Assembly (NCBI GenBank): GCA_937949545.1
Contig: CALEDR010000028.1
Location: 1-64,000, forward strand
Direction of reading: 5' to 3'
DNA from: an uncultured Phycisphaerae bacterium
GTDB lineage: Bacteria; Planctomycetota; Phycisphaerae; Sedimentisphaerales; Anaerohalosphaeraceae
Length of the DNA stretch: 64,000 bases
In this document: positions 24,508 to 30,981 of the stretch, piece after piece
Numbering within the stretch: the stretch's first letter is position 1
How the letters are laid out: each line of letters starts with the position of its first letter
The notes under the pieces: generated by a model
Seen by the model: only the letters and a program-made list of their open reading frames with translations
Databases searched by the model: none
Told to the model about the DNA's origin: nothing
Position numbers and translations under genes: made by a program

Positions 24508-24861
24508 ATGACGGAAAAGATAAACGAGAATAATCCGCAGGAAGAAACGGTTCAGGAGCGTCGGACTTTTGTGGATCGCCGCAAGAATGTTGTGGACCGC
24601 CGGAGCGGGTGGGACCGTCGGCGCGGTCCGGGACATCGTCGGACGGAAGAACGCCGGATGGCCGAAGAAGGCCAGATGACGGATGAGCAGTTCGAGTTTC
24701 TGATGGCCATTGACCAGTATAAACGGGCCAACCAGCGTCCGTTCCCGACCTGGACGGAGGTGCTGGAAGTCATTAAGGCCCTCGGCTATCGGAAAGTGGC
24801 CGAGCCGCAGTCGCTGGAGTCATTCTGCAAGGCCGATAAGGCCGTCCCCTCCGGAGTTTAG
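24508..24861 (+). CDS. small Arg/Asp-rich protein of unknown function
   Basis: 117 aa, not recognised. Residues 17-52 are strikingly charged, repeating RR-x-x-x-DRR ([24 protein letters not shown]), so the segment may bind RNA or acidic surfaces. Residues 55-105 are a more ordinary helical domain, with [36 protein letters not shown], which resembles a small DNA-binding-like or planctomycete-type domain with conserved [19 protein letters not shown]. The stop overlaps the trpA stop on the other strand. Composition and length support a real gene. Confidence 0.68.
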
Positions 24862-25679
24862 GCGTCGGCTTTTGCCGTCGGGTTTTTAGGGGGCAGGGCG
24901 GCTCGAACCTCCGAAAGAAACCGAGTAATATTCTCCCGTAGTTCGTCCGGGTTATCGGGGGTTTCTTCGATAAACTTTACAATTCGGCTGCCGATAATCA
25001 CTCCGTCCGCGCGGGCCCGGGCGACCTCGCAGGCATGCTGAGGGGTGCTGATGCCGAACCCGACACAGACGGGCTTGTCGGTCAGCCGTTTCAGCCGGGC
25101 TACCAGGGGACGGACGGCCTGGGAAAGAGCGTCTCGCTCACCGGTTGTTCCCAACAGAGAGACCGTGTAGATAAATCCTGTGGTTTTTTCGGCGATGCGG
25201 CGGAGCCGGTCGTCGGGGGTGTTGGGGGTGGCCATAAAGACCGTTTCGAGCCCTGCGTTTTTTGCCGGCAGGGTGATTTCATCGGCATCATCGATGGACA
25301 AATCCGCCACGAGAACGCTGGTACCGCCGGCTTTTTGAAAATCCTGCAAAAAGCGCTCGGTTCCGTACTGAACGAGAAGGTTGTAATAGACCAGCAGGCC
25401 GATGGGGATGGGTTTATAGGCGGTAATTTCCCTGATAAACTGGAGGGCTTTGGCGGGTGTGATGCCGGCCTTCAGGGCCCGCAGGTCGGCTTTTTGGATG
25501 GTAGGTCCGTCGGCTACGGGGTCGGAAAAGGGGATGCCCAGTTCGAGTATGTCGGCGCCGGCATCGATTGCGGCTTTGACCAGAGCCAGAGAAGTCTCGT
25601 ACGAAGGGTCGCCGATGACAAAGAAAGGAATCAGGGCCGCACGGTTCAGTTTGGAAAAGCAACTCTGATAGGGATTCAT
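24858..25679 (-). CDS. trpA: tryptophan synthase alpha subunit
   Basis: 273 aa TIM barrel that cleaves indole-3-glycerol phosphate to indole. Catalytic Glu is in [15 protein letters not shown] and catalytic Asp in [12 protein letters not shown]; the phosphate-binding end has [11 protein letters not shown] and [10 protein letters not shown]. The start at 25679 overlaps the trpB stop by ATGA, in line with the alpha/beta complex. It is the last gene of the operon and its stop overlaps that of the convergent small gene. Confidence 0.97.
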
Positions 25680-26863
25680 AAGGACCTCGCAGTCAAGGGT
25701 CTGTGGTGTTCGACGATATCGATGTCTTTATCGCCCCGTCCGGATAGGTTGGCGACGGCGATGGTGTTGTGCGGCAAGAGTCCTTTTTGCTGCCGGAGCC
25801 AGGCAAGTGCGTGGGTGCTTTCGAGGGCCGGCAGGATGCCTTCCATTCGGGAGAAGAGGAAAAAGGTATCCAGAACCTCCTCATCGCAGACGCTCACGTA
25901 GCGGGCGCGGCCTGTTTCTTTCAGATAGGCATGTTCAGGACCGACGCCCGGGTAGTCCAGACCTGCGGAGATGCATTCGGTGTCGCGAATCTGTCCGTTT
26001 TCGTCCTGCAGCAGGTAGGTACGGGCCCCGTGAAGGACGCCGACCGTGCCGGTACAAAGGGTTGCACAGTGCTGAGTAGTATGAAGGCCTTTTCCGCCGC
26101 CTTCGACCCCGACCAGCTGGACTTTGGGGTCGCTGAGAAAGGCCGAGAAAATGCCGATGGCGTTGGAGCCGCCGCCGACACAGGCCGTAACGATGTCGGG
26201 GAGACGGCCGGCTTTTTCGAGGCATTGCCGGCGAGCCTCTTGTCCGATAGGTTCCTGGAAGTGCCGGACAATAGTCGGGTAGGGATGGGGCCCTCCGGCT
26301 GTACCAAAGAGATAGAATGTATCTTCGACATGGGCTGTCCAGTATCGAAGGGCTTCGTTGATGGCGTCTTTGAGGGTTCCAGTGCCGCCTTCGACGGGGA
26401 TGACTTCCGCACCGAGGAGTTTCATCTTGTGGACGTTGACGTTCTGGCGGGCGACGTCGGTTGCGCCCATAAAGATTTTGGTTTCCATTCCAAAGAGGGC
26501 TCCGACGATGGCGGTTGCCAGGCCGTGCTGGCCGGCGCCGGTTTCGGCGATGAGTTTGGTTTTGCCCATATAGCGGGCTAGAAGTCCCTGCCCTAAGGTG
26601 TTGTTGATTTTGTGGGCGCCGCCGTGCAGGAGGTCTTCCCGCTTCAGATAGACAGTAAACCCGACGGCTTCGCTGAATCGGCGGGCGTGATAAAGCGGAG
26701 TCGGCCGCCCCGCATAGTCGGTGTACAGGGTGTTTAAGTCTTTCAGGAAGGTCGGGTCTTGCCGGAACTGTTCGAAAGCGGCCTCAATTTCCTCAAGGGC
26801 CGGGATGAGCACTTCCGGTACATAGTATCCGCCGAAGGGGCCGAATCGTCCTTTGGATTTCAT
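25676..26863 (-). CDS. trpB: tryptophan synthase beta subunit
   Basis: 395 aa PLP enzyme that joins indole and serine. The PLP lysine lies in [15 protein letters not shown], the phosphate loop is GGGSNAIG, and there is [16 protein letters not shown] and [16 protein letters not shown] (the COMM-domain region). All of this is the TrpB1 form that pairs with TrpA, not the solitary TrpB2 form. It overlaps trpF by four nucleotides (ATGA). Confidence 0.98.
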
Positions 26864-27498
26864 ACGCGGACCTTTCCGCCGTGGATACGGCTGATGGAGT
26901 CAAAAAGCTGTTTGAGTTTTGCAGGGTCTTTTCTGCCGGGGGCGCTTTCGACACCGCTGTTGACGTCGATGCCGTAGGTTCCGACTTCAAGGGCCTGACG
27001 GATATTGTGGGGGCCGATTCCGCCGGACAGGAAGATACGCCGGGGCGGATAGTCGATGAGGGACCAGTCAAAGGTCTGCCCGGTTCCGCCGTACAGCCCG
27101 TCGGTGTAGGTGTCCAGGAGGACCGCATCGGTCGGATATGTCAGGGCCTTGTCGATATCGGAGCGGTCTTTGACCCGGACGGCCTTGATCAGCTTGATGT
27201 TGAGCCAGTGGAGAGACTGGCAGAAGTCGGGGGTTTCGTCTCCGTGAAGCTGGACCCAGTTAAACCAGCCCTGCTGGGCGGTTTCCTGGACCTGTTGAAG
27301 GGTCGGATTGACAAAAACAGCTACGGTATCCACAAAGGTTGGGATTTTGGCGATGATGTCCCTGGCGTTTTGGGGGTCAATGTATCGGGGGCTTTTGGGG
27401 TAGAAAATGAATCCGAGCAGGTCCGCCCCGAGTTCGGCGGCGGTCAAGGCATCATCCAAGTTTGTGATTCCGCAGATTTTGATTTTTGTAAAGATCAT
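26860..27498 (-). CDS. trpF: phosphoribosylanthranilate isomerase
   Basis: 212 aa. It isomerises phosphoribosylanthranilate to CdRP. Motifs: KICGIT at the N terminus with the catalytic Cys, [43 protein letters not shown] with catalytic Asp, and [11 protein letters not shown] plus [16 protein letters not shown]. It is a monofunctional TrpF, not fused to TrpC. It starts 5 nt after trpD, exactly where trpC stands in many operons. Confidence 0.97.
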
Positions 27499-27503
27499 TT
27501 TCG

Positions 27504-28523
27504 TCAGTGATTGCTCAGTTCAATGAGTTTTTCGAGGCATTCGGCGGCCTTTCCGCTGTGGATGGCCTGGTCGGCGCGTTCAATGCCTTCGACGAAATCT
27601 TTGGCCAGGCCGGCTACTATTATAGCGGCGGCGGCATTCAGGACCACAATATCTTTTCGGGGACCGGGGGCTTTTTCGTAAAGGATTTCACGGATGATAT
27701 GGGCGTTGGTGTCGGCGTCGCCGCCGGTCAGGACGTCAAATTCGGCTTTGGGGATGCCGAAGCGTTCGGCGTCGAGGATTTCTTCGGTGATGGAGCCGTC
27801 CGGCAGCAGGTGAAGAATCCGGGTGGGGCCCATTGTGCTGATTTCATCCAGGCCGTTGCTGTGGACCACCATCGCCCGCTTCAGGCCGAGGGCTTTAAGG
27901 GTCTCGGCGATGCGGGGCATCAGGGACACATCGGCGACCCCCATGACCTGCGCCTGGGCGCGGGCGGGGTTGGCCAGGGGGCCGAGGATATTGAAGGCGG
28001 TGCGGAAATCCAGCGACTTTCGGACGGGCTGGACGTGTTTCATAGCAGGGTGATATTTTGGAGCGAACATAAAACCAATGTGGGCCTGGCGAATGCACTC
28101 GGCGACCGTCTCGGGACCGGCTTCGATATTGACACCCAGTGCGCTTAACACATCAGCGGAGCCGCAGATGCTGGTGATGCCTCGGTTGCCGTGCTTGGCG
28201 ACATAGACTCCGGCCCCTGCGGCTACGAAGGCGGCAGCGGTGGAGATGTTGAAGGTTTTCAGGGCGGCCCCGCCGGTTCCGCAGGTATCCACGAGGTTGT
28301 CAATGCCGACCCGGACAGGTACAGCGTGTTCGCGAAGAGAGGTCGCCAGCCCCGCCAGTTCGCTGACGGAGGCCTTTTTGACCCGCATGGCCGCCAAAAA
28401 GGCGGCGATTTGGACTTCAGCCACGTCGCCCTTGAAGATGGTGTCCAGCAGCTGCTTGGCCTGTTCGAAGGTCAGATCGTGCCCTTCGAGGATGATTTCG
28501 AGATACTCGGTGATTTTGGTCAT
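27504..28523 (-). CDS. trpD: anthranilate phosphoribosyltransferase
   Basis: 339 aa. Transfers phosphoribose from PRPP to anthranilate. Motifs: VDTCGTGGAALKTFNIST (PRPP-binding), AKHGNRGITSICGSADVL, HPAMKHVQPVRKSLDFRTAFNILGPLANPA and VVHSNGLDEIST. A good ribosome site AAAAGGAG precedes ATG 28523. The protein is monofunctional; trpG is a separate gene 13 nt upstream. Confidence 0.97.
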   Translation of the reverse strand: MTKITEYLEIILEGHDLTFEQAKQLLDTIFKGDVAEVQIAAFLAAMRVKKASVSELAGLATSLREHAVPVRVGIDNLVDTCGTGGAALKTFNISTAAAFVAAGAGVYVAKHGNRGITSICGSADVLSALGVNIEAGPETVAECIRQAHIGFMFAPKYHPAMKHVQPVRKSLDFRTAFNILGPLANPARAQAQVMGVADVSLMPRIAETLKALGLKRAMVVHSNGLDEISTMGPTRILHLLPDGSITEEILDAERFGIPKAEFDVLTGGDADTNAHIIREILYEKAPGPRKDIVVLNAAAAIIVAGLAKDFVEGIERADQAIHSGKAAECLEKLIELSNH

Positions 28524-28536
28524 ATCGGCTCTCCTT

Positions 28537-29139
28537 TTATGTGTGTTTCTTTTTCTGGTTGAGGGCGATTTTAAGGATGTTTTCGATTACTTTTCCGCCG
28601 GCGGGGGTCAGGATGCTTTCCGGATGAAACTGGACCCCGTAGATCGGCAGGGATTTATGCTGGATACCCATAACAACGCCTTCGAAGGAGGCGGTTTCCT
28701 CCAGGCAGTCGGGCAGAGTGACGGCACACAGACTGTGGTAGCGGCCGGCGTGGAGGGGATTTTCGAGGTTTTCAAAGACCCCTTTGCCGTTGTGGGTGAT
28801 TCGAGAGGCCTTGCCGTGCATGACGCAGGGGGCATGGCTGATGGTGCCGCCGAAATACTGCACGATGGCCTGATGGCCCAGACAGACGCCGAAGACAGGC
28901 AGCTTGTTGTGGAAATAGTCGACGGCTTCGAGGGTGACGCCTGCGGAGGACGGATTTCCCGGTCCGGGCGAAATGACCAGCAGGTCCGGTTGAAACTGTT
29001 CGGCGGCGCGGACCAGCTGGGACAAGGGAGTATCGGCCCGATAAACCAGCGTAGGGCATTTGCGTTTGGCGAACTCATCGACGAGGTTGTAGGTGAACGA
29101 GTCAAAGTTGTCGATAAAGAGGACACGTACGGGTTCCAT
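28537..29139 (-). CDS. trpG: anthranilate synthase component II (glutamine amidotransferase)
   Basis: 200 aa class I amidotransferase supplying ammonia to TrpE. The nucleophile Cys is in PVFGVCLGHQAI and the His/Glu pair in VQFHPESI; DNFDSFTYNLV at the N terminus is typical. PabA-type function in folate synthesis is possible too, as in many bacteria with a single copy. AAGGAGATGCA precedes the ATG, 9 nt after the trpE stop. Confidence 0.97.
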   Translation of the reverse strand: MEPVRVLFIDNFDSFTYNLVDEFAKRKCPTLVYRADTPLSQLVRAAEQFQPDLLVISPGPGNPSSAGVTLEAVDYFHNKLPVFGVCLGHQAIVQYFGGTISHAPCVMHGKASRITHNGKGVFENLENPLHAGRYHSLCAVTLPDCLEETASFEGVVMGIQHKSLPIYGVQFHPESILTPAGGKVIENILKIALNQKKKHT

Positions 29140-29148
29140 TGCATCTCC

Positions 29149-30780
29149 TTACGGCTGAAGTTGTTTGGCGGCCTGGGCACAGGCCAGTCGAACGGCTTTC
29201 AGGCAGGATTTGGCCTTGTTTTCGGTTTCTTCGAATTCGACGGCCGGAATGCTGTCATAGACAATGCCGGCTCCGGCGCGGATGTAGGCGGTATGGTCCC
29301 GAATCTGGAGACTTCGAATGGTAATGCAGCTGTCGAACTGGCCGTCCACAGTCAGATACATCACGGCACCGCCGTAATAGCCGCGTTTGTTTTTTTCCAG
29401 CCGGCGGATGATTTTCATCGCCTCGATTTTCGGAGCGCCGGTGAGGGTGCCCATATTCATCGTGGCCAGGTACGCGCTGAGAGCATCCAAATCCGGACGC
29501 AGTTTTCCTTTGACATTGCTGACCAGATGCATCACGGATTCGTAGCGTTCGACTGTGAGCAGTTCATTGACCAGACGGCTGCCGGGCCGTGAGACGCGGG
29601 CAATGTCGTTGCGGGCCAGGTCCACCAGCATCATGTGTTCGGCCAGTTCTTTGTGGTCCAGCTGAAGCTCCGCCTCGTAGCGCATATCGGTTTCGGGGTC
29701 GATGACGCCGTCCACCCAGCCGCGGGGTTTGGTGCCGGCAATGGGGCGGATTTCCACGATGCGGTCTTTTTTTCCGCTGACGCGAAGATTCAGTTCGGGG
29801 CTGGCCCCAATCAGGCAGGTGGTGTCGGTATTCAGATAGAACATATACGGAGAAGGGTTGAGCAGGCGGAGCCGGCGATAGACGTCCAGCGGCTCGGCGG
29901 GGCACGGTTCCGTAATAGTCCGGCTTAAAACGACCTGAAAGATGTCGCCGTTGCGAATATGCTCTTTGGCGGTGCGGACCATCTGTTCGTATTCCGACTG
30001 GGGGGTGTCGGTTGCAGGAGAAGGCAGCGGACCATCGTAGAAGGAAGGTTCGGGGCGATCTGCCCGCATTTGTTTCAGATAGGAATCAAAACGGGCCATG
30101 GCTTCTTCGTAGATGGCCTGACGATTGCCGTTGGTGATGACAGCATTGACAATCAGGTATCCTTTGCTTTGATGGTGGTCCATCAGAAAGATATTGTCCG
30201 CGAAGTACAGCTCATAATCCGGATTGTTCAGCAGGTCGTTCTGATTGGGAGGGAGGGTTTCAAACTGGTCGATAAAATCATAACTAATTGCTCCGAGCAG
30301 CCCGCAGGTGACGCGGAAGGGGGGGCTGGCCAGTTCAAAAGCAAAGGCCACGGCTCGAATAACATCCATTTGACTGACATTTTTGAGGCGGGTATGTTCA
30401 TCGGTTTTTCCCGACGGCCGCTGAATGGTGCCGGTTACGGCCTCCGGTGCAAACTGAATTGTTCGGCAAAAGGCAAATCGCTCCGGGTGTTCGGCGAGGT
30501 ATTGAATCATTCGTTTCCCGGTCAGGCTGAGGGCACGGATTTCGAAGCGGTCCTCTCGGCCGGTCAGATAGAGGGCCGGGTCGGCGGTCCCGAACGTCAG
30601 TTCATTGCCTTTGGCCTCTGAGAGGTAATCGCGGGATTCGAGCAGACAACAGTGACGGGCCCGGCCGTAGTCGCTCAGACGGGCGAAAAACTCGACCGGG
30701 CAGGACAGTTCAATTTCTCGGACCATCGGAATGATTTGTCCGGGTTTGGCCTGTTCGATTCTGGTTTTATAATCTGTCAT
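29149..30780 (-). CDS. trpE: anthranilate synthase component I
   Basis: 543 aa, chorismate to anthranilate. The N-terminal region has CCLLESRDY, the LLES element that binds the feedback inhibitor tryptophan, so allosteric control is probably kept. The catalytic domain has GDIFQVVLSRTI, NPSPYMFYLNTDTTCLIGASPE, RPIAGTKPRG, DLARNDIARVS, TGAPKIEAM and RAGAGIVYDS. The ribosome site (AAGGAA) is about 12 nt before the ATG at 30780. Expression is under a leader attenuator located 35 nt or more upstream. Confidence 0.97.
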   Translation of the reverse strand: MTDYKTRIEQAKPGQIIPMVREIELSCPVEFFARLSDYGRARHCCLLESRDYLSEAKGNELTFGTADPALYLTGREDRFEIRALSLTGKRMIQYLAEHPERFAFCRTIQFAPEAVTGTIQRPSGKTDEHTRLKNVSQMDVIRAVAFAFELASPPFRVTCGLLGAISYDFIDQFETLPPNQNDLLNNPDYELYFADNIFLMDHHQSKGYLIVNAVITNGNRQAIYEEAMARFDSYLKQMRADRPEPSFYDGPLPSPATDTPQSEYEQMVRTAKEHIRNGDIFQVVLSRTITEPCPAEPLDVYRRLRLLNPSPYMFYLNTDTTCLIGASPELNLRVSGKKDRIVEIRPIAGTKPRGWVDGVIDPETDMRYEAELQLDHKELAEHMMLVDLARNDIARVSRPGSRLVNELLTVERYESVMHLVSNVKGKLRPDLDALSAYLATMNMGTLTGAPKIEAMKIIRRLEKNKRGYYGGAVMYLTVDGQFDSCITIRSLQIRDHTAYIRAGAGIVYDSIPAVEFEETENKAKSCLKAVRLACAQAAKQLQP

Positions 30781-30814: not shown

Positions 30815-30844
30815 TAAAAAACGACCCGGTTTGAGGCCGGGTCG
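30815..30844 (-). terminator. trp attenuator terminator (3:4 stem)
   Basis: On the minus strand CGACCCGG-CCTCAAA-CCGGGTCG forms an 8-bp stem followed by T6 (30816-30821). An upstream segment at 30881-30892 can pair with the 5' arm (30835-30844) through GGTCG:CGACC and GGCC:GGCC, giving an antiterminator. A 12-nt direct repeat, TTCCCGAAACCT on the minus strand, flanks the hairpin at 30803-30814 and 30850-30861. Confidence 0.85.
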
Positions 30845-30891
30845 AAGAGAGGTTTCGGGAAACGGAAACAGAATTCCTGCCGACCGCTGGC

Positions 30892-30945
30892 CTATGCCTG
30901 CGGCCGCCGCCAATACTCCTTTTGTGTCACAACGATACTATTCAT
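30892..30945 (-). CDS. trpL: trp operon leader peptide
   Basis: A 17-codon frame MNSIVVTQKEYWRRPQA ends in TAG inside the leader. The single Trp codon (30910-30912), preceded by Tyr, stands directly before segment 1 of the attenuator (30900-30905). Segment 1 (GGCCGC) pairs with 30882-30887 (GCGGTC). A ribosome stalled at Trp would cover segment 1 and free segment 2 for the antiterminator; a ribosome reaching TAG would cover segment 2 and allow the terminator. The ATG is 7 nt after a -10 box, so the transcript likely begins at or beside it, as in the leaderless trpL of Sinorhizobium meliloti. Only one Trp codon is present, fewer than most trpL peptides; translation has not been shown. Confidence 0.72.
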   Translation of the reverse strand: MNSIVVTQKEYWRRPQA

Positions 30946-30952
30946 AGAAACG

Positions 30953-30981
30953 AGTATATCGGTTTTTGACATCCGGTTCAA
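30953..30981 (-). promoter_or_regulatory. trp operon promoter
   Basis: On the minus strand TTGAAC (30976-30981), 17-nt spacer, TATACT (30953-30958). The ATG of the leader peptide starts 8 nt below the -10 box. It is preceded by an A/T-rich tract at 30983-31020. Confidence 0.8.

Follow-up and report, generated by a model that had tools for sequence, protein, structure and literature searches.

A probable leaderless trp attenuator, overlaid by a predicted TrpR-type operator, in an order of planctomycetes

Ribosome-mediated attenuation of trp operons is best known in Proteobacteria and Actinobacteria. The trpL leader of Escherichia coli has a 5′ untranslated region (UTR) and a ribosome-binding site and is not leaderless. 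In Sinorhizobium meliloti, the trpL transcript begins at the ATG itself, carries three consecutive Trp codons and can adopt two mutually exclusive structures (PMC7298713). The E. coli trp operon is controlled both by attenuation and by TrpR, the gene for which is autoregulated (PMC5343134, PMC7755916). Within the Proteobacteria, the Gammaproteobacteria were the only class in which TrpR was found (PMC5343134). In Streptomyces, the transcripts of leuL, metL and thrL are leaderless and carry amino-acid-coding leader ORFs (PMC8079986). In Chlamydia trachomatis, trpR sits with trpB in the trpRBA operon (PMC7755916). Our search of open-licence papers returned no planctomycete trp attenuator, TrpR or combination of the two; an earlier mention in a review is possible.

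The locus described here lies on the minus strand of the window, by which we mean the whole 64,000-nucleotide stretch of DNA analyzed. Family searches identified trpE (30780-29149), trpG (29139-28537), trpD (28523-27504), trpF (27498-26860) and trpB (26863-25676), and trpA (25679-24858) was assigned by its position and translated sequence, without a family search. The product of trpE is an enteric-type TrpE (NF010079/PRK13564; 501.9 bits against a cut-off of 471) whose best solved-structure matches, 1i1q and 1i7q, are anthranilate synthase component I. The operon (24858-30780) is missing trpC, and an IGPS gene is found on another contig of the same genome, G000 (locus L195, G000:C33:13068-13850). 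Sampled TrpE loci from other planctomycetes share, for the most part, only about 37-47% identity with the enteric-type protein (PRK13564) of the window. It is possible, judging from sequence, that trpE or the whole operon entered the window's order by horizontal transfer. The region at 30981-30815, which comprises a promoter, a leader ORF and alternative hairpins and stands 35 nt ahead of trpE, is with high confidence the control region of this trpEGDFBA operon, a confidence that applies jointly to the whole explanation by attenuator and repressor given below.

The promoter consists of a −35 box, TTGAAC (30981-30976), and a −10 box, TATACT (30958-30953), recovered by promoter search after a 17-nt spacer. 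Seven nucleotides separate the −10 box from the A of the leader ATG (30945-30943), which opens an apparently leaderless ORF, trpL, encoding MNSIVVTQKEYWRRPQA and ending at a TAG (30894-30892). This ORF, at 30945-30892, has 17 codons, with Tyr (30915-30913) and the sole Trp (30912-30910) at codons 11 and 12; promoter, nearby ATG and frame are all as the preliminary description of this DNA gave them. That description overlooked a palindrome, GTTTCTATGAATAGTATC (30934-30951), that covers the start codon and differs by two mismatches from the form typical of the window's family, GTTTCTATNNATAGAAAC, within which the leader ATG also sits. Downstream of the Trp codon, RNA folding and alignment delimit segment 1 (30906-30896), the 5′ arm of the 1:2 hairpin, and segment 2 (30891-30881), which can pair with either segment 1 or segment 3. 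Segment 3 (30847-30834), defined by pairing analysis, is the antiterminator partner of segment 2 and includes the 5′ arm of the terminator. The 1:2 hairpin had been proposed as 30900-30905 with 30882-30887; it exists and is longer, joining 30906-30900 to 30887-30881 and, in addition, 30898-30896 to 30891-30889, and its loop holds the stop codon. The 2:3 antiterminator pairs about 30893-30875 with 30847-30834 over some 14 bp. The intrinsic terminator 3:4, CGACCCGG-cctcaaa-CCGGGTCG-T6 (30844-30816), identified by terminator search and by its conservation, has 8 bp (30844-30837 with 30829-30822) followed by T6 at 30821-30816. Folding of the window RNA by itself produced the 1:2 hairpin and the terminator with a z of −1.75, modestly beyond chance, and the window alone held 2 promoter-like sites against 0.8 in shuffled sequences, a modest excess. 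Because signals in the window alone are only modestly above chance, it is the conservation of this architecture in relatives that identifies the locus as real.

We therefore rest the case on the upstream regions of close TrpE relatives, taken from 80 loci with sufficient upstream DNA, the window included, in records that are nearly all of Planctomycetota or Phycisphaerae; the comparisons draw on genome sequences only, many of them metagenome-assembled and related to one another. Promoter, leader ORF and terminator stand in the same order ahead of trpE in 78 of the 80, which bears out the earlier proposal that this planctomycete has a trp attenuator whose leader ORF is leaderless. The leader could not be recognized at the other two trpE loci, L021 and L087. 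The upstream region of L021 contains repeated GC-rich elements. Trp is conserved in the leader peptides, most of which end in ...WWWP(V/A/E)G or similar; three Trp codons are present in 45 leaders and two in 27, whereas very few leaders, that of the window included, have a single one. The frame is also intact: when the ATG was picked from the promoter alone and the first downstream TGG pair was then checked, the two were in frame, with no stop between them, in 72 of 75 cases (binomial P about 1e-30, relatedness being ignored). The in-frame distances from ATG to TGG pair took seven different values. Two leaders with an in-frame insertion, MAQNHFNYRFGCPLRDALGQWWPVR at L044 and MAQNHVNYRCSCPLRDALRQWWLVGK at L053, still have their Trp codons adjoining segment 1.

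The three pairings are likewise kept, with the compensatory changes expected of co-varying stems. Helices were scored on a MAFFT alignment built without reference to structure, with the partner strand slid by 1-3 columns as a control. The 1:2 helix was paired in 83% of cells with 23 double-changed cells, the 2:3 helix in 82% with 37, and the 3:4 helix in 92% with 108, whereas pairing in the slid controls fell to 25-49%. RNAalifold, unaided, recovered the terminator stem, in which 9 of 10 pairs showed a compensatory change. The locus thus has the parts of a trpL-type attenuator, a leader ORF with Trp codons before segment 1 and mutually exclusive 1:2, 2:3 and 3:4 pairings. Scans against Rfam 15 at gathering and relaxed thresholds gave no trp leader (Trp_leader), T-box or other family, only sub-gathering matches; a match in Rfam denotes membership of a sequence family, not of a mechanism. 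A covariance-model search of 392 genomes of the phylum found the window's family, few of the known members elsewhere and some weak matches outside the family, and it was left out of the distribution counts because it missed known members, probably through having scored few candidates. Might the terminator instead be constitutive or belong to the upstream gene, or the attenuator be run by an RNA-binding protein or a T-box and not by the ribosome? Nothing in this analysis favored such an arrangement, which we consider extremely improbable: a terminator-like hairpin (31042-31020, minus strand, from the terminator search) belongs to the upstream gene and sets it apart from the trp unit, Rfam offered no T-box or other element, and in-frame Trp codons are kept at the edge of segment 1 across the window's order. 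On these comparisons, it is nearly certain that the locus is a ribosome-mediated trp attenuator.

The single Trp codon of the window, remarked upon in the preliminary description, is present but appears to be derived: codon 13 is TGG in L003 and L008, both closely related to the window, and leaders with two or three Trp codons predominate among the relatives. The loci L003 and L008, with TrpE 97-98% identical to that of the window, have TGG TGG CGG in place of its TGG CGG CGG; the leader at L009 likewise has a single Trp codon. The suggestion that the CGG Arg codons after Trp add sensitivity found no support, and we rejected them as sensors: CGG is not rare, making up 74 of 277 Arg codons in neighboring genes, and its place in the leader is explained by a change of TGG to CGG. 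A recent loss, and not Arg sensing, is therefore the best reading of the lone Trp codon. Greater numbers of regulatory codons confer greater sensitivity (PMC1183508), and control in the window may be weaker.

The promoter bears on where the leader transcript begins. TTGACA or a close variant is found at −35 in almost all relatives, and of the 77 with a called promoter, 75 have a spacer of 17 nt. Scored against TTGACA-17-TATAAT or TTTAAT, 75 of 76 promoters tested reached at least 9 of 12 positions and 57 reached 11 of 12 (the chance of 11 or more in shuffled sequence being 0.0004). In 73 of 77, between 6 and 11 nt separate the −10 box from the ATG. On the sequence checks that the preliminary description had set for itself, namely the frame in relatives, co-variation of the stems, conservation of Trp and this promoter spacing, its main reading held. 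A sigma-70 start site is expected about 7 nt past the −10 box, and the transcript is therefore expected to start at the ATG or a few bases before it. A Shine-Dalgarno sequence was found ahead of none of 78 leader ATGs, compared with 33 of 78 trpE starts. Both sequence marks of a leaderless trpL, start-site spacing at the ATG and an absent Shine-Dalgarno, are present, and they point strongly to a leader mRNA that is leaderless or nearly so, with an exact 5′ end predicted from the spacing. An attenuator with a conventional 5′ UTR, its transcript beginning at a more distant upstream site and its leader having an ordinary ribosome-binding site, does have a counterpart in G306, G328 and G400, distant relatives in the order with another TrpE type, where W-rich leaders lie tens of bases past the same palindrome. 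For the window's group we regard it as very unlikely, given near-consensus promoters, the short gap to the ATG and leader starts that uniformly lack a Shine-Dalgarno.

We also examined the palindrome at the start codon, which we predict to be a TrpR-type operator. With at most two mismatches allowed, it occurs near the leader start or promoter at 20 sites in the upstream set against 0.1 in shuffled sequences, and it is close to unique within each genome of the window's family. Both mismatches in the window fall in the 3′ half, and the strength of the site there is therefore uncertain. In a co-occurrence table assembled by hand, the palindrome before trpE and a TrpR-family gene (PF01371) were both present in 17 genomes and both absent from 30; the gene without the palindrome occurred in none where trpE was readable, and the palindrome without the gene in one, G436 (91% complete). 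The corresponding Fisher P values, 4e-12 overall and 0.011 within the family, are inflated and overstate independence because the compared genomes are related. The palindrome also precedes trpR itself in six genomes (G000, G003, G004, G005, G400 and G424). In G000 (L181, L213; G000:C1, about 155500-157300) this box, ATTTCTTTATAGAGAAAC, is found between the promoter-like hexamers TTTACA and TATAAA and just ahead of the trpR ATG, which is about 10 nt past TATAAA; the next gene is TrpB-like, identified from reading the sequence, without a family search. The G000 protein scored 61.7 bits against PF01371, above the cut-off, and 61.9 bits against the TrpR equivalog TIGR01321, below the cut-off of 67.25, and is therefore called TrpR-type and not TrpR. 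Against YerC/YecD it scored only 25.9 bits, which places it closer to TrpR. The known Trp contacts of E. coli TrpR, Thr44, Arg54, Arg84 and Gly85, align with LTP, the Arg of SLR, and ITRGS in the G000 protein, and Ser88 is replaced by Ile.

The palindrome could instead be a chance occurrence, a coding feature imposed by the conserved M-x-R-N start of the leader, or the site of another regulator, and its imperfection in the window and its genus fits such a view. We judge this unlikely, because the palindrome tracks the TrpR-family gene and precedes trpR as well, lies on the −35 box and not the ATG at two of the 20 sites (L079 and L080), where it codes for nothing of the leader, and is upstream of trpE in genomes with another TrpE type (L208-L212, from G132, G328, G306, G400 and G420). 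In several of these last, it precedes leaders rich in W (MITCAYNSFYWCWLPEK, MRNINKQNLNENWWLWRW...) as well as terminator-like hairpins, but the 5′ UTRs are longer. As a predicted TrpR-type operator, the palindrome is well supported in the window's family and more weakly so in the window itself, and in the family a TrpR-type repressor and leaderless attenuation are likely to act together.

We thus consider it highly probable that the operon is governed by a ribosome-operated leaderless attenuator, overlaid in the family by probable TrpR-type repression. The promoter, the frame, the Trp codons, the three alternative helices and the TrpR gene with its box are provided by the sequence comparison, and from them we infer where exactly the transcript begins, that the ribosome stalls, that transcription terminates and that TrpR binds. 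Transcription would start on the leader ATG itself or only a few bases away, and the leader peptide would be made from a leaderless or near-leaderless mRNA. With charged tRNA-Trp in ample supply, the ribosome would move past the Trp codon as far as the stop codon, in the loop of the 1:2 hairpin, and mask segment 2, so that 3:4 pairs and transcription terminates ahead of trpE. When charged tRNA-Trp is scarce, the ribosome would stall at the Trp codon, at the 5′ edge of segment 1, leaving segment 2 free to pair with segment 3 and RNA polymerase free to enter trpE. At high Trp, a TrpR-type repressor would probably bind the start-site palindrome in the window's family and block initiation.

Leader-peptide control in this order may extend beyond trp. 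Leu-rich leader ORFs precede leuA in 24 of 30 genomes of the window's order (L261-L290), ending for example in ...LLGLLLLRP in G000 (L263, G000:C23) and ...LLALLLRR elsewhere, and many begin 6-10 nt past a −10-like box. No clear intrinsic terminator was found at the 30 leuA loci. From their sequences, these ORFs are probably a second, also leaderless, case of leader-peptide control. A His-type leader was found before hisG in none of 30 cases, and a rough scan with estimated start codons found no convincing leader at 29 trpE loci sampled across the phylum. The idea that the attenuator arrived only with the enteric-type TrpE was ruled out by W-rich leaders that accompany the other TrpE type (families f2 and f3). 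We lean slightly toward a broader view in which operator, transcription start and leaderless start codon form one stretch, codons 2-4 being an operator half-site, so that the repressor (on DNA) and the first ribosome (on RNA) share the same sequence, and in which, given the leuA leaders, leaderless attenuation is perhaps the order's rule.

The locus would bring attenuation and TrpR-type control together across many genomes of one planctomycete order, with the predicted operator atop an apparently leaderless start codon. It would supply a missing Rfam family and, for planctomycetes, the motif of a TrpR-type operator. Genomes that have TrpR and genomes that lack it offer a natural set for comparing the shares of repression and attenuation, and leaderless translation in planctomycetes becomes directly testable at a defined locus.

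Among described systems, the likeness to S. meliloti trpL and trpE(G) lies in the leaderless attenuator mechanism (PMC7298713), and the leaders themselves are related in sequence only by their runs of W. However, S. meliloti trpLE(G) is free of repression at initiation (PMC7298713), whereas the planctomycete start is overlapped by a predicted TrpR-type box. Streptomyces belongs to a different phylum, and the part of the source available does not describe TrpR control for its leaders (PMC8079986). The E. coli trp operon shares double control by TrpR and attenuation, as well as the enteric-type TrpE; the planctomycete box GTTTCTATNNATAGAAAC differs from the operator of E. coli and is placed over the leader start codon. 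C. trachomatis, a member of the same superphylum as the planctomycetes, resembles G000, with its trpR and TrpB-like gene, in having TrpR and in keeping trpR beside trpB. It has no validated TrpL attenuation, a role filled there by YtgR (PMC7755916). The combination of leaderless attenuator and start-codon operator looks like a known type of mechanism, wired differently from that of E. coli.
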